Shown here: positions 10,631 to 20,826 of the stretch, piece after piece
How the letters are laid out: every line of letters begins with the position of its first letter
How positions within the stretch are numbered: the stretch's first letter is position 1
Source: Aphanocapsa sp. GSE-SYN-MK-11-07L
GTDB lineage: Bacteria; Cyanobacteriota; Cyanobacteriia; Thermosynechococcales; Thermosynechococcaceae
Assembly: GCA_019359715.1 (NCBI GenBank)
Contig: JAHHGS010000139.1
Span: 124,001-188,000 of the forward strand
Reading direction: 5' to 3'
DNA: 64,000 nt
Notes under the pieces: generated by a model
Databases searched by the model: none
What the model was told of the DNA's origin: nothing
The model's input: only the letters and a program-made list of their open reading frames with translations
Made by a program: the position numbers and the translations under genes

Positions 10631-12526
10631 ATGGCTTCTTCTCACCCGTCCGAGACAACCCCGTCTCCGATCGCCGTTGCCCCCTCACCGCCCTATTTCC
10701 AGCCTCGATCTCAGACGCCAGCCGGAGTAATGAAGCTTGTTTACTGGCTGAAAACCAAACCAGAGGTTCTAACGCTGCTGTTAGTGTTGGCGATTGGCAG
10801 TGCAACTGGACTAGCGATCGTCGGCTTTCATGGTTTGGTCGAGTTTATTCACTATCTCACCCTGGAAGTTCTGATGGGGGCGATCGGCCCGTGGGGGGAC
10901 TGGACTTTGGCGATCGTGCCAATTCTGGGGGGATTGGCGATCGGCTTGATGCGCTGGGGGTGGCGAGACTTTGGTGAGTCTAATCCAACCCATCAGCCTC
11001 CTTCTTTGATCCAAGCTGCGGCCAAACTGGTGGCTGCCTCGATTTCACTGGGGACTGGCGCTTCTTTAGGCCCAGAGGGGCCAAGCGTTGAGGCTGGGGC
11101 CAGCCTGGGGCGTTCGTGGTCGCACTGGTTACGAATGTCTGAAGATCGGCGACAGCTCCTGTTGGGTGCAGGCGCTGCCGCTGGGTTGGCGGCTGGCTTT
11201 AATGCCCCGATCGCCGCCGTCTTTTTGGCGGTAGAACTGTTCTTAAAGACCACCTTCGCCGCCAGTACGGTTGGGTTTGTGTTGTTAGCAGCCGTCGCCG
11301 GGGCGCTGATTACCCAAGTGCTTTTGGGCTGGCAACCCCCCTTCGATCTGCCGGTTTACGATTTTCGCAGCTTTAAGGAATTACCGCTTTATGTTGGCTT
11401 AGGCGGGCTAGCCAGCCTAGTTTCTCAGGTGCTTACCCAAGCGATTAAGCTGGCAGAGCGATTGTTTAAGGGGGAAGTGGCTTGGTTTCAGGTTCCGCCG
11501 CTGTTCAGACCCATTTTGGGAGGGCTATCGGTAGGTTTGGCGGCATTGCTGATGCCGCAGGTTTTAGGCGTGGGCTACGAAACCGTCGAGGCGATTCTCC
11601 GCAATGTCTCGTTTGACTGGCAACTGCTGCTGCTTTTACTGGTCGTCAAACTGGTGATGACAGCCTTGAGTTTGGGCAGCGGGTTAGTCGGAGGCATCTT
11701 TGCCCCAGCCATGTTTTTAGGAGCAGCCCTGGGAGCAGCCTATGGGCAAGCCGTAGCGCTGGTACTCCCCGATGCTTGGCTAGAGATTGCCGCCCCGCCT
11801 GCCTATGCCATGGTCGGGATGGCGGCAGTGCTGGCCAGCACGGTGCGCGCCCCTTTGACGGCGGTGATGCTGCTGTTTGAGCTGACTCGCGACTACCGGA
11901 TCATTTTGCCCTTGATGGCCGCAGTTGGGATCAGCGTTTTATTGGCAGAGAGATGTCAGCTCAAACCGCTCAATCTGCAGCAGATGGGGATGCCGCTGGC
12001 TCGGAATGAAATTCAGGAGATCCTCAGCACGATCCCAGTCACGCAGGCGATGGAGACTGATCCTTTATTTTTGCCAGCCAGCTTGACCCTGTTCGAAGGT
12101 CTAAAACTGCTGTCTAGCCAAGCCACCCACAGTGGATTGGTGATTAATCCGCTCGGAGAACTGGTTGGGGTGATTACCCTTTCAGATTTGAATCGCGCCT
12201 TGGCAAAATACCACAGTCCATCTGAGCCAGTGACCTTGCACCAAATTTGCAGCAAAGCGCTGATTTATGTTTACAGCCATGAGTCTTTGGCAGTGGCGAT
12301 CGCCCGTTTAGCCGGAGGCGGGCTGCACCAGTTGCCCGTCATTGATCAATGCCCTCCCCATGCCGTTCTGGGCTTGGTACGGCTGGAACAAATTACATTG
12401 ACCTATGAATTAGCCTTGAGCGATCGATTGCAAAACCAGTACCTGACTAAGGAGCCGCAGGACTCTCAGTCGGCGCAGCAGGCACTTCCCCTTCCATTGG
12501 CGGTGCCTCACCAGTCCCTGGAATAG
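10631..12526 (+). CDS. ClC-family chloride channel/transporter with C-terminal CBS pair
   Basis: A 631-residue membrane protein that moves chloride, probably in exchange for protons. The ClC core has ten or more helices between about residues 35 and 445. The selectivity and gating motif GTGASLGPEGPS with the gating Glu, the GFNAPIAAVF segment, and the GSGLVGGIFAPAMFLGAALG signature are all present. The C-terminus carries two CBS domains (around 465-520 and 540-590) that usually bind adenosine nucleotides and regulate gating. The last 80 nt overlap the 3' end of the convergent exbD gene. Confidence 0.9.
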   Translation: MASSHPSETTPSPIAVAPSPPYFQPRSQTPAGVMKLVYWLKTKPEVLTLLLVLAIGSATGLAIVGFHGLVEFIHYLTLEVLMGAIGPWGDWTLAIVPILGGLAIGLMRWGWRDFGESNPTHQPPSLIQAAAKLVAASISLGTGASLGPEGPSVEAGASLGRSWSHWLRMSEDRRQLLLGAGAAAGLAAGFNAPIAAVFLAVELFLKTTFAASTVGFVLLAAVAGALITQVLLGWQPPFDLPVYDFRSFKELPLYVGLGGLASLVSQVLTQAIKLAERLFKGEVAWFQVPPLFRPILGGLSVGLAALLMPQVLGVGYETVEAILRNVSFDWQLLLLLLVVKLVMTALSLGSGLVGGIFAPAMFLGAALGAAYGQAVALVLPDAWLEIAAPPAYAMVGMAAVLASTVRAPLTAVMLLFELTRDYRIILPLMAAVGISVLLAERCQLKPLNLQQMGMPLARNEIQEILSTIPVTQAMETDPLFLPASLTLFEGLKLLSSQATHSGLVINPLGELVGVITLSDLNRALAKYHSPSEPVTLHQICSKALIYVYSHESLAVAIARLAGGGLHQLPVIDQCPPHAVLGLVRLEQITLTYELALSDRLQNQYLTKEPQDSQSAQQALPLPLAVPHQSLE

Positions 12527-12998
12527 TTGGTGGAGTTTGCAGGTCAAGCGGCGGCACAGCGCCAGGATTTTGCGGTTCTAAGGTCGGCTTGTTCACAGGT
12601 TGAGTTGCTAGGGCAACCCGCTCGCCCCCGACTGAGCGGAGTAAATCTAGCACCTGCATCACGTCGTTATAGCTATTCAAGGGGGAAGCGTTTAAAACAA
12701 TTAAACCGGCTGGCTTGGTGCGGGTATAACTCAGGAGGAGCTGATAAAGCTGATCTCGACCCACGGGCTGCTTGTCGATGTAGGTTTGCCCAGTCGGATC
12801 AATGCTGACCAACAGCAGCTCTTGGGTCTGGGCAGCGCCAGTGCTCGCTTTCGGTAAATTGAGATTGATCGCCTGTTGGCGAGTTAAATTAACTGCTGCC
12901 AAGATAAAAAACGTTAAAATACAAAAGATGACATCAATCAGGGGGACAATCTCAATTCGAGTGTCTGGGCCTTCAGTTTCCAAGAGGTTAATCTTCAT
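12447..12998 (-). CDS. exbD: ExbD/TolR-type energy-transducing membrane protein
   Basis: Component of the proton-driven ExbB-ExbD motor that energises TonB-dependent uptake or Tol-type envelope functions. A single N-terminal transmembrane helix carries the essential Asp (D22 in PLIDVIFCILTFF), followed by a periplasmic domain with the family ending (VLNASPLNSYNDVMQVLDLLRSVG) and a proline-rich tail of about 40 residues. The gene follows exbB on the same strand with a 115-nt gap. Its last 80 nt overlap the 3' end of the ClC gene on the other strand, within the proline-rich tail. Confidence 0.9.
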   Translation of the reverse strand: MKINLLETEGPDTRIEIVPLIDVIFCILTFFILAAVNLTRQQAINLNLPKASTGAAQTQELLLVSIDPTGQTYIDKQPVGRDQLYQLLLSYTRTKPAGLIVLNASPLNSYNDVMQVLDLLRSVGGERVALATQPVNKPTLEPQNPGAVPPLDLQTPPTIPGTGEAPPMEGEVPAAPTESPAAP

Positions 12999-13113
12999 GG
13001 CGTTGGGGTAAAAATGCAGTGAATGAAGTGCTGCTAAAGATTGAGCTGAAACTTCTCTAAAAACACCGCTAGGCAGAATTTTGGTGTGGTCAATTGGTCT
13101 GAATCTATGTGAT

Positions 13114-13797
13114 CTAATAGTCAGTTTCTTCGGGTTGATCCCATTGCCCCAGCATCGTCATGCTGTTTGACCTAGGTTGCAGCCAGCCTTGGCGATAGGT
13201 GAGTTCAAGTTCGTTGCCCGTGCGCCGAAACATTCTGGCCTGCTGGAATAGGAGGGCTTGAAATAGCCGATAAAACGCTAAGGAAATAATTGCCACGATC
13301 AGACCAGTGGCGGTACTGATCAGGGCTTCACTAATCCCCAGCGTTACTCCAGCCGTGGCCGAGGTGCCAATATCGCCCAAACGAATTGAACTGAGGGAAT
13401 CGATTAACCCCAACACGGTGCCCAATAAGCCCAGCAGTGGAGCGAGGGCGATCGTGGATTCTAGAATCTTATCGCCCCGGCGCATGGCGTTGAGTTCTTC
13501 ATCTGCCGAAGCTTCTAGGGCCAGCCGAAACGTTTCGGGTTCTTTATTAGCCAATTTGAGCGGGGTGTAGAGAAAACGCCCAATCGGTTGGCTGCAGGCT
13601 TGCTTAGCCAAATGAGTTGCTTCTTGCCAATCGCGGCGAGCCGCCTCCAAAATTTGATCCGCCGTTCGGTGTTCTCCCTTCAGGATTGTGCTCCAAAACC
13701 AAAGACGCTCAAAAATAGTGCCCAGGGTGAGTATCGATAGACCCAGGAGGGGCCACATGGCTAAACCACCCTTCTGAAATACATCTGCAATATTCAC
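13114..13797 (-). CDS. exbB: ExbB/TolQ-type proton channel protein
   Basis: A 227-residue MotA/TolQ/ExbB family protein, the pentameric partner of ExbD. It shows an N-terminal transmembrane helix (MWPLLGLSILTLGTIFERL), a long cytoplasmic loop, and two C-terminal helices with ALAPLLGLLGTVLGLIDS and the GISEALISTATGLIVAI segment typical of the family. It is transcribed with exbD. The TonB-like gene at 16910 and this pair, on opposite strands but within 6 kb, probably form one energy-coupling system. Confidence 0.9.
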   Translation of the reverse strand: MNIADVFQKGGLAMWPLLGLSILTLGTIFERLWFWSTILKGEHRTADQILEAARRDWQEATHLAKQACSQPIGRFLYTPLKLANKEPETFRLALEASADEELNAMRRGDKILESTIALAPLLGLLGTVLGLIDSLSSIRLGDIGTSATAGVTLGISEALISTATGLIVAIISLAFYRLFQALLFQQARMFRRTGNELELTYRQGWLQPRSNSMTMLGQWDQPEETDY

Positions 13798-14442: not shown

Positions 14443-14544
14443 TGTTTATACTTAGCTAAAATTACAACTCCGCTCAACGGCGCAAGAGGCGGGCAAAATC
14501 GTAATAGGATCAAGGAAAGTCCACCGGGTTGGATAGTTTTGATC

Positions 14545-15027
14545 ATGAATGAAATTGGGGAGCAACTTGCAGCTAGCACAGAGGCTGCGATCGCGTTTTT
14601 GCAAACTGTGCCTATGTTTGAAGAGATTGACTCAAGCTGTTTGCGATCGCTGGTGGGTGTTTTAGAGCGGGTGCAGTTTGCCCCCAATCAGCAGATTTTT
14701 AAGCAGGGAGAGTCAGGGCATCTGCTTTATATTTTGGTTAGCGGCAGAGTGCACGTGCATATTGACCATTTAACTCTGGCGGAACTGACTCCTGGCCAGG
14801 CGTTTGGCGAAATGGCGGTGTTTGACTCGCAGCCCCGGTCAGCGGCGGTGACTGCCCTCGAAAACTCTGAATGCTGGGTGTTGTCGCAAGCCCAGATTCA
14901 TCAAGTGATTGACCAGAATCCGGCGGTGGCGATCGCCCTGATTAAAGTCTTAGGCGCTCGGCTGCGTCGCTTAATTGGGCTGTTTGCCACGGCGGAAGAT
15001 TTGTTTGCTCTTAAAGCTCAGGCGTAA
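14545..15027 (+). CDS. Cyclic nucleotide-binding domain protein, stand-alone
   Basis: A 160-residue protein that is almost entirely one CNB (Crp-type) domain with no helix-turn-helix. The phosphate-binding cassette reads FGEMAVFDSQPRSAAV with both ligand-contacting residues, Glu (about E89) and Arg (about R98), intact, so cAMP or cGMP binding is likely. ATG 14545 is preferred over an upstream TTG at 14539. A second CNB gene begins 5 nt after its stop, so the two are surely cotranscribed and may have arisen by duplication. Confidence 0.85.
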   Translation: MNEIGEQLAASTEAAIAFLQTVPMFEEIDSSCLRSLVGVLERVQFAPNQQIFKQGESGHLLYILVSGRVHVHIDHLTLAELTPGQAFGEMAVFDSQPRSAAVTALENSECWVLSQAQIHQVIDQNPAVAIALIKVLGARLRRLIGLFATAEDLFALKAQA

Positions 15028-15032
15028 CCTTT

Positions 15033-16076
15033 ATGCTGCTCAGTCAAGCTAATTTGCAAGTTTTACAAACAGTGCCGCTGTTCAGAGATATTGAGCCAGA
15101 TTCGGCCCTGACTCGGCTGGCAGCGAGTCTGCAAGAGGTGAATTTTCCGGCCAATCATCTAATCCTGAAGCAGGGGACAGTCAGCGGCAAACTGTATGTG
15201 CTGTTGACTGGACGTGTGCAAGTCAGAGTTGGCAATGCGCCCCTGACCGTTCTGGGCCCAGGAGCACATTTCGGTGAAATTTCTCTATTTGACGGCCAGC
15301 CGCACTCAGCCTCGATTGTTACTTTAGAACCCAGCACTTGCCTGGTACTTGGCCGTCAGCAAATGCATCAGGCGATCGCTGATTCGCCGGAATTGGGCTT
15401 GAGCCTGATTCGCGGTCTGGTCAGTCGAATTCGCTACCTGAATGAGCGGCTGAGCGCATGGCTGCGCGGTCTGCTCACCGTCGCTTGGGCTGATGGACAC
15501 TACAATACTGAAGAGAAAAAGCTGATTGAGTCTTTGGTCAAAGACCTTTGCCCCCAGGCAGATCTGGGGACGCTGCCCACGATTGACGGCCCAGAATTGG
15601 CTGAGTTATTTAGACCCGATCCGGCAGCGGCAGAAAACTTTTTGCGGGCTGCCATGATCGTCGCTTTGGCCAACGGAACTTACTCGGAGCCAGAAGACAG
15701 GGTGTTGAGAAACTTTGCGAGAGCTTTGGGGCTAAGCACAGATGTTCTGGATGCCTTGCAGGTAATTTTGATTGCCAACAATCAACCGACAGTCAACCTA
15801 CCAGACCACCATACCCTGGATGTTTTGCATCCGGTGCGAGAGTGGCTGGATGAAATGGTCATTGACTCCCCTGCGACAGCCCGCTTCTTGTGCAAGCTGA
15901 TTCCATCTCAGTGCCCTTTCGAGCGAGATGTTGTTCTATTTGGTCACAAGATTATACACATTCCGCCCATGTGTAAGCTCAATCCGCTTTACGAGCAATT
16001 AGTAGGGCTACGCTTTCGGGCTCTCAGCTATCTGGCAGATGTCTGCAAAGAAGATATTTCTGCTTATTTAACTTAA
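15033..16076 (+). CDS. CNB domain fused to TerB-like and Mo-nitrogenase C-terminal-like domains
   Basis: A 347-residue three-part protein. Residues 1-135 form a CNB domain in which the phosphate-cassette arginine is replaced (FGEISLFDGQPHSASI, H91), so nucleotide binding is doubtful. Residues 145-245 look like a TerB-type helical domain with two acidic DG/NG motifs (WADGHYNTEEKKLIES and LANGTYSEPEDRVLRN). Residues 258-345 match the Mo-dependent nitrogenase C-terminus family: FLCKLIPSQCPFERD, IPPMCKLNPLYEQLVGLRFR and four cysteines (287, 294, 314, 338). That family occurs in cyanobacterial proteins that are not nitrogenase subunits. It directly follows a catalytically intact CNB gene. Function unknown. 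Confidence 0.8.
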   Translation: MLLSQANLQVLQTVPLFRDIEPDSALTRLAASLQEVNFPANHLILKQGTVSGKLYVLLTGRVQVRVGNAPLTVLGPGAHFGEISLFDGQPHSASIVTLEPSTCLVLGRQQMHQAIADSPELGLSLIRGLVSRIRYLNERLSAWLRGLLTVAWADGHYNTEEKKLIESLVKDLCPQADLGTLPTIDGPELAELFRPDPAAAENFLRAAMIVALANGTYSEPEDRVLRNFARALGLSTDVLDALQVILIANNQPTVNLPDHHTLDVLHPVREWLDEMVIDSPATARFLCKLIPSQCPFERDVVLFGHKIIHIPPMCKLNPLYEQLVGLRFRALSYLADVCKEDISAYLT

Positions 16077-16155: not shown

Positions 16156-16773
16156 ATGCTGAATGGATTTACAGCCGGGCTACTGCTGATTACAGTTTCA
16201 GAGTTAGGCGATAAAAGCTTTTTTATTGTCATGTTGCTGGCGATGCGCCATCCCCGCCACTGGGTTTTCATTGGGGCGATCGCCGCTTTGAGCCTGATGA
16301 CTGTGGTGTCGGTGCTGATGGGGAAAGCTATTCGCCTGCTGCCCCAAGCTTACACGCACTACGGAGCGATCGCTCTGTTCTGTTTGTTTGGACTGAAATT
16401 GCTTTGGGATGCGAGCCAAATGCCTGCCCACGCTGAAGCAGCAGAGGTGGCGGCAGCAACTGTGGCGGTCGAGCAAGCGGATGCCAAACTTGCAAAAACG
16501 GCCGGGGCGAGAGCGATCATCTTAGAAGCCGCCGGACTAACTTTTTTGACCGAATGGGGCGATCGCACTCAATTGGCGACCATCACGCTAGCCGCTGCCA
16601 ATCACCCAATTGGGGTGACGGCTGGGGCTATTTTGGGGCATGCAATCTGTACCCTGATCGCGATTGTAGGTGGCTCATTCGTGGCTGGACGGATTTCTGA
16701 GCGGTTGGTGACCGCGATCGGGGGTGGATTGTTTTTAGTGTTTGGCTTTCTAACTTGGCAGGAAAGGCTATAG
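16156..16773 (+). CDS. mnx: GDT1/UPF0016 manganese exporter, Mnx-like
   Basis: A 205-residue membrane protein of the TMEM165/GDT1 family, which move Mn2+ or Ca2+ against protons. Both signature motifs are present: ELGDKS at residues 16-21 and EWGDRT at 133-138. Each precedes a three-helix bundle, and a charged, alanine-rich linker (about 88-118) separates the halves. The length matches the cyanobacterial thylakoid Mn exporter (Mnx, relative of plant PAM71). The gene symbol is inferred from length and motif; a second GDT1 paralogue may exist elsewhere. Confidence 0.87.
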   Translation: MLNGFTAGLLLITVSELGDKSFFIVMLLAMRHPRHWVFIGAIAALSLMTVVSVLMGKAIRLLPQAYTHYGAIALFCLFGLKLLWDASQMPAHAEAAEVAAATVAVEQADAKLAKTAGARAIILEAAGLTFLTEWGDRTQLATITLAAANHPIGVTAGAILGHAICTLIAIVGGSFVAGRISERLVTAIGGGLFLVFGFLTWQERL

Positions 16774-16909
16774 CCTGCGTTGCTGTGCTGGCTATCATTG
16801 CCGCTGCGATCGCATATCTAAATCAGATACGCTGCTCAACACTGATTTGGGATTGGTATATGCTGGAGTTCGTTAGCCTGTCGCTCGATTGCACTCACTG
16901 CTCCAGGAT

Positions 16910-18121
16910 ATGACCAGCATCATCAAAATTCTACCCGATCAACCCCCCCAGCCCAATCGGCTGGCGATCGTCGTGTCAGTTGGGTTTCATGCCCTCGTGT
17001 TTGGTGCGCTGGCCTTAGCTCCTAAAAGCCCAATCCCTGATGATCAAAAGCTGGTCAATCTGGTTACTCTGTCGCCAGAGGAGCAGGGTCGCTTGCCTTC
17101 CTTTGCTAACCCAACCGCCCCAACTCCTGGCAATTCAAAGGCGATCGCCCCGCCCAGTTCGGCCCTGGCTCCACCCGCCGTCAGTAATTTTGACTTTAGC
17201 GCTTTGCCACCGCTCCAAATGCCAGATATTCCATTGCCGCCCCCGCCGGTCTATGTGCCGCCCCCAGAGGTTTATTTACCCCCAGCCCGGGACTACGTTG
17301 TTACTCAACCTCGCCGAGATTTTTCCCCGCCGCCACTGCCCGAAACTCCGCCCCAGCCCGACGTGATGGAATCTCCGGTGCCGCCCCTCCCGCCAGAGGT
17401 GTTGCAGCCAAGTCCTTCCCCCACGGCGATACCTGATGTTAGCCCTGGGCGGCAAGTCTATTTCGGTGAAATTTCGCAGTGGTTTGTCCAAGCCCGGGCC
17501 ACCATCAACTCAGAGAACATTCGCCCCACTTTAAACGCACAAGCGCCCCCTTACCCCTATCCCCCCGCCGCCTGTCAGGATAAATTGCAGGGCAGGGCAT
17601 CTGTAATCGCGTTAGTTAGCCCAGAGGGCAAATTAGTTCAGCCACCCAAACCAGAGCAGGGTTCAGAAGCTGCTCCAGTCAACACGCTGAAAGAAAATCC
17701 GCAAATTATTCTGAGTACGAAGCATGAGTTGCTAGACCAAGCGGCGATCGCGGCGGTAGAGGAAATCAAGTTTGAGCCGTCGAAAAATTATCAGGCGTTG
17801 ATGTACACGTTTAACTACGAGTATTCAGATGCCGTCTGTGCCCAGGCACCCCAACCTTCTCCCTCGCCCCAGACCTCACCTTCGCCAGGTGCTTCTTCCC
17901 CCGAAGCCTCTCCTTCACCTCAGCCAACTTCTACCGTCGCTCCAACTCTAAACGGCAGCCCTACTCCACCAGAGGCGGAACCTACCCCATCCCCCAGTCC
18001 GGAAACACCTCCCGCCGATAGCTCCAGTCCAGCAGATGAAACGCCAGCCCCCACTCCATCAGCTCCTGAACCGGAAGCAAGCCCATCGCCAACATTTGTC
18101 CCATCCCGCCCGCTTCGTTAG
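16910..18121 (+). CDS. TonB-like energy transducer with proline-rich linker and tail
   Basis: A 403-residue protein. ATG 16910 precedes a single N-terminal membrane anchor (LAIVVSVGFHALVFGALALA). A long proline-rich stretch (about 60-190) would span the periplasm. A C-terminal TonB-like domain (GRASVIALVSPEGKLVQ to AAIAAVEEIKFEPSKNYQA) follows at about 220-315. Beyond it lies a further tail of about 90 residues made of Pro, Ser, Thr, Glu and Ala. The exbB-exbD pair nearby supports a TonB role; the distal tail is unusual because the TonB domain normally ends the protein. Confidence 0.75.
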   Translation: MTSIIKILPDQPPQPNRLAIVVSVGFHALVFGALALAPKSPIPDDQKLVNLVTLSPEEQGRLPSFANPTAPTPGNSKAIAPPSSALAPPAVSNFDFSALPPLQMPDIPLPPPPVYVPPPEVYLPPARDYVVTQPRRDFSPPPLPETPPQPDVMESPVPPLPPEVLQPSPSPTAIPDVSPGRQVYFGEISQWFVQARATINSENIRPTLNAQAPPYPYPPAACQDKLQGRASVIALVSPEGKLVQPPKPEQGSEAAPVNTLKENPQIILSTKHELLDQAAIAAVEEIKFEPSKNYQALMYTFNYEYSDAVCAQAPQPSPSPQTSPSPGASSPEASPSPQPTSTVAPTLNGSPTPPEAEPTPSPSPETPPADSSSPADETPAPTPSAPEPEASPSPTFVPSRPLR

Positions 18122-18155: not shown

Positions 18156-20633
18156 CTAGTCGATTTGCCCAATCAAGACAAAGCCAGCCCAGTTGCGGGG
18201 ATTCGGGTCTTGCTTGATCATGGTCAACATCGCTTGCCGAAGCGCTTGGGCTTTATCGAGCTTTTGGTGCTGACGCTGGCGATAAAACTCTGTCATTAAT
18301 TGGGCTGTGGGCAGGTCAGGCACAGCCCACAGCGAAACTACAACGCTGTTTACCCCAGCCGACATCAGCGATCGGGCCAGTCCAACCACGCCATCGCCAG
18401 TGATTTTGCCCCGCCCAGTATCGCAGGCACTCAGCACCGCCAAGTCAGCCTGCAACTTTAAATCTAGAATTTCAGCCGCTGTCAGTAGCCCATTGTGCTG
18501 TTGATCGGCAACAAAAGCCAAGGAGCTATTGAGTCCTTCTTGACCATCAAGCAGCCCGTGGGTGGCTAGGTGAATTAAGCTGGCTTGCGACATTTGCTGC
18601 AACACTTCCGTCTCAGTTGCCTTCCTCCCAATTAATGGCTGAGCATTTAGCATCTGAGCGATCGCCTTTGCTTCCTGTTCAGCCGCAGGCAGGGGCGATA
18701 GTCCGACTGGCATTGGGGTTGGGTTGCCGACAATCAGAGCCAACTTGGTTGCAGTCGAACGCGGCTTGCTCAAGGCCAGCACTTGAATCGCCGGCGCGAT
18801 CGACAGGGTATGTTTTTCGATCAAAAATTGACCTGACGCATCTTGAAGGGCAGCAAAGGGCACCAGAAATAGCGCTCCTTGCGGAATAAAAATGATCCGA
18901 GCCTTGGGGTCGGTGGGCAGCAACTCCGCGATCGGTTGAATCAGCAGTTCATAACTGTTGCGGGCGGAAGTAAACATGGGCTGAGACGTTGATTCAAGCA
19001 GGCTTCCCCGCAGTGAAACAACTAAGTCTGAGATCAGCGGTTGAGATTGATCTTGACCAGCCGCCACCGCAGCTCGGGCTTGGCGGGCTAGCTTGTTGAG
19101 CGAAACTGCCTGATTATTCTTCAGCGCCTTCAAATCTATCCGCCGAAAGTTGATGTCTCCGGCTGGACTGACCACCCAAATATAAAGGTCAGTTTCTTGA
19201 CCTGCCCGATCTTGGAGCAGGGAATAGGTGACTAGGGTTGCTTGCTGCTGCTTGGCGATCGCCTGAATGGCAGCGACTGTGGGCGGAGCTTCTTGCCTTG
19301 GCAGCGGCGAGTTTGATAAACGCTGGGCCAGCAATTCAACAAAGGCTCTGCCCCGTCCCCGCTCGGCGGCGACCAAGGCCTCTGCCTGCCGATTTTGGCT
19401 GACTAGGGTTTTCTGAAATAGCCCGTAGGTGTAGGTCTGGGTTTCAAATAGGGAAATTTTTTGCTCATCCCGCAGCCCTGGCCGTAATTGCTCAAACGCG
19501 TCTAGACTAGCTTGCAGGGCTTGCGTTGCCCGCTCCGATTGTCCTGACTCTAACAGCGTTTCCCCCAGCCCACTCAGCGCTTTGGCTTCACCAACTCGAT
19601 CGCCGTTTTTTCTGGCCCAGGCCAAAGCCTGCTCATAGAAGTCGATCGCTTGTGCATACTGCTGAAGCTGGCGGTAGTAGTTGCCCAAATTGGTGAAAGT
19701 CAGTGCCCGCCCAGTGCCATTAATCAATCGCGTGGTTGCCAGCGCCTGCTGTAAGTAATCAAGTGCCGGCTGAGTCTGACCCTGTTTTAGATAAGCACGG
19801 CTGAGGTTGTTGAGCAGATAAACTCTGCCTGTGCTATCGCCTAACCCACTGATTATCGACAGCGCTTCTTGATAGGAACTGAGGGCTGCCTCAAACTGAG
19901 ATAGCTCTTGGTAGGCTAGTCCCAAACTGCTAAGGGTGCGGGCTGCACCTAGGCGATCGCCGACGGAGCGGCGAATCGCCAGCGCTTGCTGGTAATAATC
20001 TTGCGCTTGCTTATATTCACCCAGATTAAATTGCACATCGCCAATTGCTTGCAGGGCCCAGCCTCGGTCAAACGGGTCGTTAGCGGCTCTTTGAGCTAAC
20101 TCAAGATACTGTAAGGCTTTAGTGTATCCGCCCAAATAGTGGTAGGTTTCGCCCAAGGCAATCCGGGTGCGATTTTCGGCTGCAATATCCCGCAGTTGGC
20201 TGCCCTCAGCCCGCTGCAACTGCTGGAGCGCTTGCCAGTAGTCTCCCTGTTGGAGATAAACCATCCCTTTCAGGCTTGAGCGCTGCCCCTGCTGCTGGAA
20301 ATTGCTGGGGAACTGCTCAGCTTGCTGTAAAGCTTGGAGAGCTTGTGGATAGCGCCCCTGCCGATAGTAAGCGAGTCCGAGCTGCGTCAGTGTTGCTTGC
20401 TGCCCTTGCGGGTCGGCCTGCGATTTGTAAAGCTGCAATACTTGCTCTAGTTTTTGTTCGGCAATCCCCGGTGAGCCAATCCGCAACATTTCAACCGCAG
20501 ACTTGAATTGACGGTCTGCCTCGGTTGCTGACGTTTGGGCGATCGCTGGCAGCGGGGGCTGGAGTGGGTTTAACCCGACTAAGCTGGGGGTAAGCAGCAA
20601 CCCTAAACACAGGGAAGTTCGGAGCGATCGCAT
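18156..20633 (-). CDS. Secreted TPR-CHAT domain protein (caspase-like fold)
   Basis: From ATG 20633 the protein is 825 residues; a GTG at 20657 would add eight. An AAAGG sequence five bases upstream and a signal peptide (SLCLGLLLTPSLVGL, then PAIAQ) support the ATG. About ten TPR repeats fill residues 40-400 (for example ALQYLELAQRAANDP, AQDYYQQALAIRRSVGD). The C-terminal CHAT domain has the catalytic His in LIHLATHG (about H692) and Cys in LSACDTG (about C737), as in caspase-related peptidases. Export to the periplasm is predicted. It is convergent with the TonB-like gene. Substrate unknown. Confidence 0.9.
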   Translation of the reverse strand: MRSLRTSLCLGLLLTPSLVGLNPLQPPLPAIAQTSATEADRQFKSAVEMLRIGSPGIAEQKLEQVLQLYKSQADPQGQQATLTQLGLAYYRQGRYPQALQALQQAEQFPSNFQQQGQRSSLKGMVYLQQGDYWQALQQLQRAEGSQLRDIAAENRTRIALGETYHYLGGYTKALQYLELAQRAANDPFDRGWALQAIGDVQFNLGEYKQAQDYYQQALAIRRSVGDRLGAARTLSSLGLAYQELSQFEAALSSYQEALSIISGLGDSTGRVYLLNNLSRAYLKQGQTQPALDYLQQALATTRLINGTGRALTFTNLGNYYRQLQQYAQAIDFYEQALAWARKNGDRVGEAKALSGLGETLLESGQSERATQALQASLDAFEQLRPGLRDEQKISLFETQTYTYGLFQKTLVSQNRQAEALVAAERGRGRAFVELLAQRLSNSPLPRQEAPPTVAAIQAIAKQQQATLVTYSLLQDRAGQETDLYIWVVSPAGDINFRRIDLKALKNNQAVSLNKLARQARAAVAAGQDQSQPLISDLVVSLRGSLLESTSQPMFTSARNSYELLIQPIAELLPTDPKARIIFIPQGALFLVPFAALQDASGQFLIEKHTLSIAPAIQVLALSKPRSTATKLALIVGNPTPMPVGLSPLPAAEQEAKAIAQMLNAQPLIGRKATETEVLQQMSQASLIHLATHGLLDGQEGLNSSLAFVADQQHNGLLTAAEILDLKLQADLAVLSACDTGRGKITGDGVVGLARSLMSAGVNSVVVSLWAVPDLPTAQLMTEFYRQRQHQKLDKAQALRQAMLTMIKQDPNPRNWAGFVLIGQID

Positions 20634-20826
20634 ATGAGCCTTTAATCTACCAATCACTTTGCCCAGCTTAAGTTCAAACCACTAGAGCAATTGTGATTTG
20701 CGTCGCTGCTCTGACAGGCAAGCTTACGCTGATAATCTTGGCTCAAAAATTCTCGGTTTTCTTAAATTATTACCCGTTGAAGACCACGACTAAAGTTTGA
20801 TAAGTTTGATATGATGAGTTTTGCCT

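Follow-up and report, generated by a model that had tools for sequence, protein, structure and literature searches.

A conserved tandem of cyanobacterial cyclic nucleotide-binding proteins, one with arginine and one with histidine in the phosphate cassette, as a candidate split receptor

The window analysed here, a stretch of 64,000 nucleotides from the cyanobacterium Aphanocapsa sp. GSE-SYN-MK-11-07L, holds two adjacent genes, ORF1 and ORF2, each encoding a cyclic nucleotide-binding (CNB) domain. The PF00027 match reaches 77.3 bits in ORF1 and 70.7 bits in ORF2 against a cut-off of 27.5 (Pfam scan). The features of the pair are the following.

14545..15027, forward strand: ORF1, 160 aa, a lone cNMP-binding domain with an intact phosphate cassette (open reading frames, Pfam)
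14803..14850, forward strand: phosphate cassette of ORF1, FGEMAVFDSQPRSAAV, with Glu89 at 14809-14811 and Arg98 (CGG) at 14836-14838
15028..15032, forward strand: intergenic gap of 5 nt from the ORF1 stop codon to the ORF2 ATG (translation)
15033..16076, forward strand: ORF2, 347 aa, a fusion in the order cNMP domain - TerB - Mo-nitro_C (open reading frames, Pfam)
15138..15383, forward strand: cNMP-binding domain of ORF2, residues 36-117 (PF00027, E 1e-19)
15270..15317, forward strand: altered phosphate cassette of ORF2, FGEISLFDGQPHSASI, with Glu82 at 15276-15278, Ser84 at 15282-15284 and His91 (CAC) at 15303-15305
15444..15761, forward strand: TerB-like part of ORF2, helical, spanning roughly residues 138-243 (PF05099, 38.3 bits, cut-off 24.4)
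15822..16067, forward strand: Mo-nitro_C domain of ORF2, residues 264-345 (PF06967, E 1.3e-40, 137.7 bits, cut-off 27)
15891-15893, 15912-15914, 15957-15959 and 15972-15974, forward strand: Cys287, Cys294, His309 and Cys314 of Mo-nitro_C

ORF1 starts with the ATG at 14545, and there is an alternative TTG start at 14539. An earlier, sequence-only reading of this DNA had described two genes 5 nt apart, the first keeping Glu and Arg in its cassette and the second carrying His for Arg. The coordinates, the gap and the cassette residues (Glu89 and Arg98 of ORF1, Glu82 and His91 of ORF2) were reproduced, and the two genes run in the same direction. That reading did not mention the fusion, which makes ORF2 a three-domain protein beside the single-CNB ORF1. 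Taking cassette Glu plus Arg as the mark of a canonical CNB domain, ORF1 has both, while ORF2 keeps the Glu and has His for the Arg. In the PDB sequence search the best matches of both proteins are PKGs.

Two familiar kinds of bacterial CNB protein were considered for the pair and set aside. A CRP/FNR regulator would carry a C-terminal helix-turn-helix; no such family appears in the Pfam scans of ORF1 and ORF2 at E <= 1, and the CRP-type NCBIfam models match the CNB part only, far under their cut-off. For a Pycsar anti-phage effector, PADLOC gives PycTIR matches of 65.5 and 49.1 bits that lie on the CNB part only, and the Pfam scan contains no TIR domain.

The domains that ORF2 has in addition to its CNB could be the output part of the system. 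The TerB-like region is also matched, more weakly, by the Pfam family DUF533 (residues 138-243). When the TerB-Mo-nitro_C part was compared with the PDB as a profile (alignment A2, 14 rows, of which one, L128, is the whole fusion and the rest are the C-terminal part), it found two solved TerB proteins, 2ou3 at E 4.3e-9 and 2jxu at E 0.015; no match of this search covered the span of Mo-nitro_C. The four residues Cys287, Cys294, His309 and Cys314 are invariant in all 74 aligned TerB-Mo-nitro_C proteins, and such a Cys-Cys-His-Cys pattern would suit a putative metal site. The name of the domain hints at nitrogen fixation and is probably misleading. We rejected a nitrogen-fixation link as the reason for the name in this case: the best match to the nifD model TIGR01282 in the window genome (an assembly 99.48% complete) scores 53.4 bits against a cut-off of 653.55, and the Synechococcus elongatus control has a PF06967 protein too. 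According to an excerpt of PMC9846622, the Nodularia spumigena gene NSP_RS06835, annotated with Mo-nitro_C, is among those up under phosphate starvation.

Both halves of ORF2 have relatives that stand on their own. TerB-Mo-nitro_C is usually a separate protein in the other cyanobacteria searched. A search of 388 class genomes with ORF2 gave matches at E <= 1e-40 in 269, the window genome included, a count that misses split matches such as those in G033 (2.2e-39) and G043 (3.1e-35); apart from the window's own, the matches listed are to the C-terminal region, in a few cases mainly to Mo-nitro_C. These proteins resemble ORF2 in having TerB, Mo-nitro_C and the Cys-Cys-His-Cys residues, mostly at about 50-60% identity, and differ from it in having no CNB domain. 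Matches to free-standing CNB proteins at E <= 1e-26 were obtained in 210 of the 388 class genomes, with the window's own pair included in this number. Like ORF1, the free-standing CNB proteins are single-domain (145-214 aa in the 43 rows aligned) with a cassette that is mostly FGEMSLFDAEPRSASV-like; unlike ORF2 they are unfused, and 41 of the 43 that were aligned form a group of their own in the CNB tree (100/99). Phormidium sp. LEGE 05292 has one such protein besides the pair. No other genome of the window's family (f1) is among the positives of this CNB search of the 388 class genomes (E <= 1e-26). Since TerB-Mo-nitro_C is mostly alone and these f1 genomes are without CNB positives, the candidate output module would have no general need for a CNB partner.

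The fusion itself is rare. It was searched for in 58 relatives, 388 class genomes, 148 Phormidium relatives, 195 relatives of G430 and 386 phylum genomes, sets that overlap (G705, whose contig coordinates equal those of G430, is counted once). Among the matches listed for the 58 relatives and the 388 class genomes, only the window genome has a full-length match to ORF2; no other class genome has a match better than 7.6e-78, while genuine full-length fusions reach about 1e-135 or better. Even draws contain the fusion in one of 388 class genomes and in two of 386 phylum genomes. The second full-length fusion came from Phormidium sp. LEGE 05292 (L089); it is 56% identical and has an ORF1-like gene just upstream. 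Its 148 Phormidium relatives provided 11 fusions, two of them cut, and the 195 relatives of G430 provided 12, one of them new. Five of the 10 other known full-length fusions were scanned, and all five repeat the three-domain order. The fusion was not found in the 28 other f1 genomes searched, some of which are incomplete, and the window genome may have acquired it by sideways transfer.

In total the pair is present in 13 genomes (G000, G388, which is Phormidium sp. LEGE 05292, G389, G390, G394, G396, G430, G452, G470, G486, G502, G531 and G537), and in every one of them the fusion is immediately preceded, on its own strand, by an ORF1-like gene. The two frames overlap by 4 bp in seven pairs (L106-L111, L128); the gaps in the remaining six are 5 (the window), 36, 51, 83, 83 and 83 nt, all these lengths resting on mechanical start codons. 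Some of the 13 are closely related, with six of the ORF2s 82-92% alike, those of G388 and G389 92% alike, and near-identical N-terminal parts in G390, G394 and G396. Hence our counts of 13 stand for about five lineages, as judged by protein similarity. In G394 and G396 (L112, L113) ORF2 ends with its contig at one and the same place, after TerB and just before Mo-nitro_C; perhaps the assembly broke at a repeated domain. A separate Mo-nitro_C piece, 82% identical, lies near the start of another contig of G394.

The surroundings of the pair differ from genome to genome. Seven regions of 13-21 kb were compared, and the pair is the sole element common to all (ORFs of at least 100 aa). The regions of G388, G389 and G390 have mfd and a CorC-like gene in common, and one small protein recurs in those of G430 and G502. 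The pair is therefore found in at least four settings, or five when G430 and G502 are taken separately. Near the window pair are the following genes.

12447-13797, reverse strand, and 16889-18121, forward strand: ExbD, ExbB and TonB-like genes flanking the pair (Pfam)
16156-16773: GDT1 transporter gene, directly downstream of the pair (Pfam)

A conserved operon of the pair with these neighbours was rejected for the seven regions, since none of the other six has an equivalent of the ExbD, ExbB, GDT1 or TonB-like genes. The other cross-region matches are generic or single: the window's ABC ATPase with G430 and G502, its TPR-CHAT protein with G389, and one G390 gene with one G430 gene; no generic match adjoins the window pair. 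The TPR-CHAT protein (833 aa, 18156-20657, reverse strand, PF12770 at 246.5 bits) lies near the pair. Near the G537 pair is an ORF of very regular short repeats (LTLGQVRLTLGQV..., L164, 7406-7786, reverse strand).

What can be said of the origin of the pair comes from two trees. The CNB tree was built from an alignment of 77 rows (13 ORF1, 13 ORF2, 43 free-standing proteins and 8 from family f1), taken from the first mechanical start, which makes the window ORF1 two residues longer there; identical proteins were merged before alignment. The ORF2 rows form one group (100/99), the tool giving a long-branch warning, and the window ORF2 sits on a long branch of 2.16. The ORF1 rows stand beside this group and are not a clean group themselves, with three long-branch f1 rows among them. 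In the tree of the TerB-Mo-nitro_C part, which has 74 of 78 rows (L112 and L113, cut at contig ends, and two rows under 170 aa were dropped), the 11 complete fusions make up one group (97/95). These groupings are consistent with a single origin of the fusion. We suppose that the CNB domains of ORF1 and ORF2 are sister copies, the second of which would have been joined to the N-terminal side of TerB-Mo-nitro_C, elsewhere in cyanobacteria a free-standing protein. The distances among ORF1s and among ORF2s correlate (r 0.91, 78 genome pairs), as shared descent alone would be expected to predict.

Comparison of the cassette across genomes, which the sequence-only reading had proposed as a check, upholds the difference between the partners. 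The key position is Arg in 13 of 13 ORF1 rows, His in 13 of 13 ORF2 rows, and Arg in 42 of the 43 free-standing rows (L052 is the exception), a count that leans to close relatives, these 43 being the best-scoring loci, at most 30 from each search. To judge by the alignment, a split kept in all 13 pairs is more than chance. The cassette Glu is present in every ORF1, ORF2 and free-standing row (13, 13 and 43). Two pairs encode the His by CAC, the other eleven by CAT. The ORF2 cassette keeps its frame around it: neither FGE nor the Ser that follows the His varies in the 13 rows.

Among the 141 gap-free columns of the 26 pair rows, only two are fixed 13/13 within each partner yet differ between them: Ala in ORF1 and Ser in ORF2 at ORF2 position 84, and Arg and His, respectively, at position 91. 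Both lie within the 16-column cassette, for which the chance with two random columns is 0.012. They lie two and nine residues after the Glu, and this distance of 7 between them is that of Ala202 and Arg209 of PKA RIalpha, the two places to which excerpts of PMC10959531 chiefly trace the nucleoside specificity of trypanosomatid PKA. Ser at the Ala202 place is also usual in free-standing rows (40 of 43), and therefore ORF1 is the deviant at the Ala202 place and ORF2 at the Arg209 place.

Another part of the pocket can be followed in the same rows, the place of PKA Gly169 having been set from what we take to be the PKA loop sequence. Across CNB families Arg209 co-evolves with this glycine of the beta2-beta3 loop, according to the part of Kannan et al. 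(2007, PMC2246266) drawn on here. The equivalent Gly is present in all 13 ORF1 rows, all 43 free-standing rows and 12 of 13 ORF2 rows; among the last, only the copy in the window deviates, with Ser at this place. The eight f1 rows have Ala (4), Arg (2), Tyr (1) or Ser (1) at the key position, and only three of them keep the Glu. Where the Arg is lost the loop Gly is lost as well (6 of 6), and both Arg-bearing rows keep it. The six f1 small CNB proteins without both residues are L053-L055, L057, L059 and L060; five of them have also lost the Glu, and the L055 cassette, FGDINLFDSQPASATI, is an example of a route more decayed than that of ORF2. Since the pocket sequence is otherwise kept (Glu in 13 of 13, the Gly169 equivalent in 12 of 13), the His of ORF2 seems to mark an altered site, not a decayed one. 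Decay would be a little more likely for the window ORF2 than for the ORF2 set, given its Ser at the Gly169 place and its long branch.

A structure model adds little. The AlphaFold2 model of ORF2 (6 rows) has a mean pLDDT of 66.8 and a pTM of 0.45, being weak outside the CNB. Within the CNB most 10-residue blocks reach a pLDDT of 82-93, and the cassette block (81-90) has only 66, so the model is uninformative on the ORF2 pocket. It draws a helix, residues 119-151, from the CNB into TerB, with a pLDDT of 55-68 beyond the first residues. The best Foldseek matches of the model are the GlxR/CRP and PKG CNB domains.

How might such a pair work? The reading that we prefer, tentatively and with somewhat less than an even chance, is a split receptor in which ORF1 reads cAMP or cGMP and the His-bearing ORF2 is its partner, carrying the output module. 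ORF1, with its canonical pocket (Glu89, Arg98), would most likely bind cAMP or cGMP. ORF2, in which His replaces the Arg that binds phosphate, would most likely not sense cyclic nucleotides in the usual manner and would act as partner and output subunit. Ligand on ORF1 would shift the C-helix of the ORF2 CNB through the heteromer; this helix may continue into the first TerB helix, and in this way the TerB / Cys-Cys-His-Cys module could be switched. The sequences establish the domains, the pairing, their conservation and the fixed Arg/His split; the binding, the heteromer, the helix coupling and the output role are what we infer from them. It is plausible that cAMP is bound by ORF1 only, as the sequence-only reading had suggested; its interpretation, which also had the two proteins form a heteromer as a split sensor-effector, is partly supported. 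The window genome has three class III cyclase-domain matches that exceed the cut-off, so a source of ligand is likely. The heteromer would fit the strict pairing and the tight or overlapping genes: the genes adjoin in 13 of 13 genomes, they overlap by 4 bp in seven, and the pair alone is common to all seven regions compared. The fixed Arg/His split, the two cassette columns at the Ala202 and Arg209 places and the groupings in the trees also speak for this reading. Against it stand the small number of lineages behind the counts, the rarity of the fusion in even draws, the mostly solitary TerB-Mo-nitro_C protein, the f1 rows among the ORF1 branch of the CNB tree and the weakness of the model.

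Several other suggestions can be made regarding the CNB of ORF2. That it has an altered ligand or altered affinity rather than no ligand at all is a live alternative, considering that the His is invariant in our rows and that most of the pocket sequence is kept. The first form of it supposes that ORF2 responds to another ligand of its own, whether a nucleoside, a nucleotide that is not cyclic, or a metal or heme centre held by the His, with or without ORF1. We regard this as possible but unlikely. The His, the Glu and the following Ser are each kept 13/13 in domains that are down to 41% identical, and the loop Gly is kept in 12 of 13, whereas the Arg-less f1 rows lost it every time. There are precedents too: in excerpts of PMC10959531 the regulatory subunit of trypanosomatid PKA (PKA-R), with polar residues for Arg, binds nucleosides, and in those of PMC2246266 a His of CooA that is structurally analogous to Arg209 coordinates heme. 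There are also points against it. In the same excerpts of PMC10959531 the nucleoside response of the trypanosomatid protein needs Glu at the Ala202 place, where ORF2 has a Ser that is just as usual in Arg-bearing free-standing rows; changing this Glu to Ala cut the inosine potency 1556-fold, while the response hardly depended on the residue at the Arg209 place, and restoring Arg there sufficed for a response to cIMP. What these mutants mainly support is that Arg is needed for cyclic nucleotides; they give less support to a nucleoside as the ligand of ORF2. The CooA cassette is non-canonical throughout, and the window copy of ORF2, as noted, has Ser at the Gly169 place.

Also unlikely, and ranking below a different ligand, is that the CNB of ORF2 is a ligand-free structural module, a pseudo-receptor retained solely for pairing with ORF1. 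The loss of the phosphate-binding Arg speaks for it, as do the long branch and lost loop Gly of the window copy, and an excerpt of PMC12422582 describes a degenerate CNB2 in Plasmodium CBP-O that stands beside intact domains and is suggested to be non-binding. But a lost site should drift, and in ORF2 the His, the Glu, the FG before the Glu and the Ser are unvarying over 13 rows; what actual drift looks like can be seen in the six f1 rows.

It is improbable, in our estimate, that both CNBs bind cyclic nucleotide, with ORF2 having a lower or pH-dependent affinity so that one signal is read at two thresholds. Only one canonical cassette contact is altered, the loop Gly is kept in all but one ORF2, and an Arg-to-Lys change in PKA lowers the cAMP affinity only nearly ten-fold in the excerpts of PMC2246266. 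Against this, His is shorter and mostly neutral, and the free-standing relatives, at least the best-scoring loci, keep the Arg almost without exception. That ORF1 and ORF2 are co-transcribed tandem relatives acting separately is the least probable reading of all: tandem duplicates often remain together and only about five lineages are involved, but the pairing persists while the neighbours differ, and the frames overlap by 4 bp in seven of 13.

A still bolder variant joins the preferred split receptor with a ligand for ORF2. In a two-ligand receptor ORF1 would read a cyclic nucleotide and ORF2, via its invariant His, another small molecule, for instance a breakdown product of the cyclic nucleotide or a metal or heme centre. 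We consider this quite improbable. If correct, the heteromer would measure a ratio and set the activity of the TerB and Cys-Cys-His-Cys metal-type output accordingly.

Among the titles and abstract starts listed in literature searches by domain names with cyanobacteria, or by cassette with histidine, none names this pair. It is easy to mistake a CNB domain that lacks the key arginine for a dead site, and the 13 matched pairs, standing for about five lineages, offer a testable case of a receptor that became a partner or was re-aimed to another ligand. The pair is also a handle on the possible control of the widespread cyanobacterial TerB-Mo-nitro_C protein.

Other systems are comparable in part. 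As is proposed for the pair, two CNB domains work together in the PKA regulatory subunit and in PKG. In these the tandem CNBs are on one chain and control a kinase, while the pair has its CNBs on separate chains, with TerB and Mo-nitro_C attached. CooA is a DNA-binding CO sensor, and unlike ORF2 it has a non-canonical cassette. In the excerpts of PMC2246266, His at Arg209, or structurally analogous to it, likens both CooA and the PDZ_GEF domains (in which Met or His occurs there naturally) to ORF2; PDZ_GEF differs in being a eukaryotic family related to Epac. Trypanosomatid PKA-R, as described in the excerpts of PMC10959531, is like ORF2 in having a polar residue at the Arg209 place. It is unlike the pair in that both sites of the protein are changed, and its nucleoside-type combination, Glu at the Ala202 place with a residue other than Arg at the Arg209 place, differs from that of ORF2, which has Ser at the former in 13 of 13.
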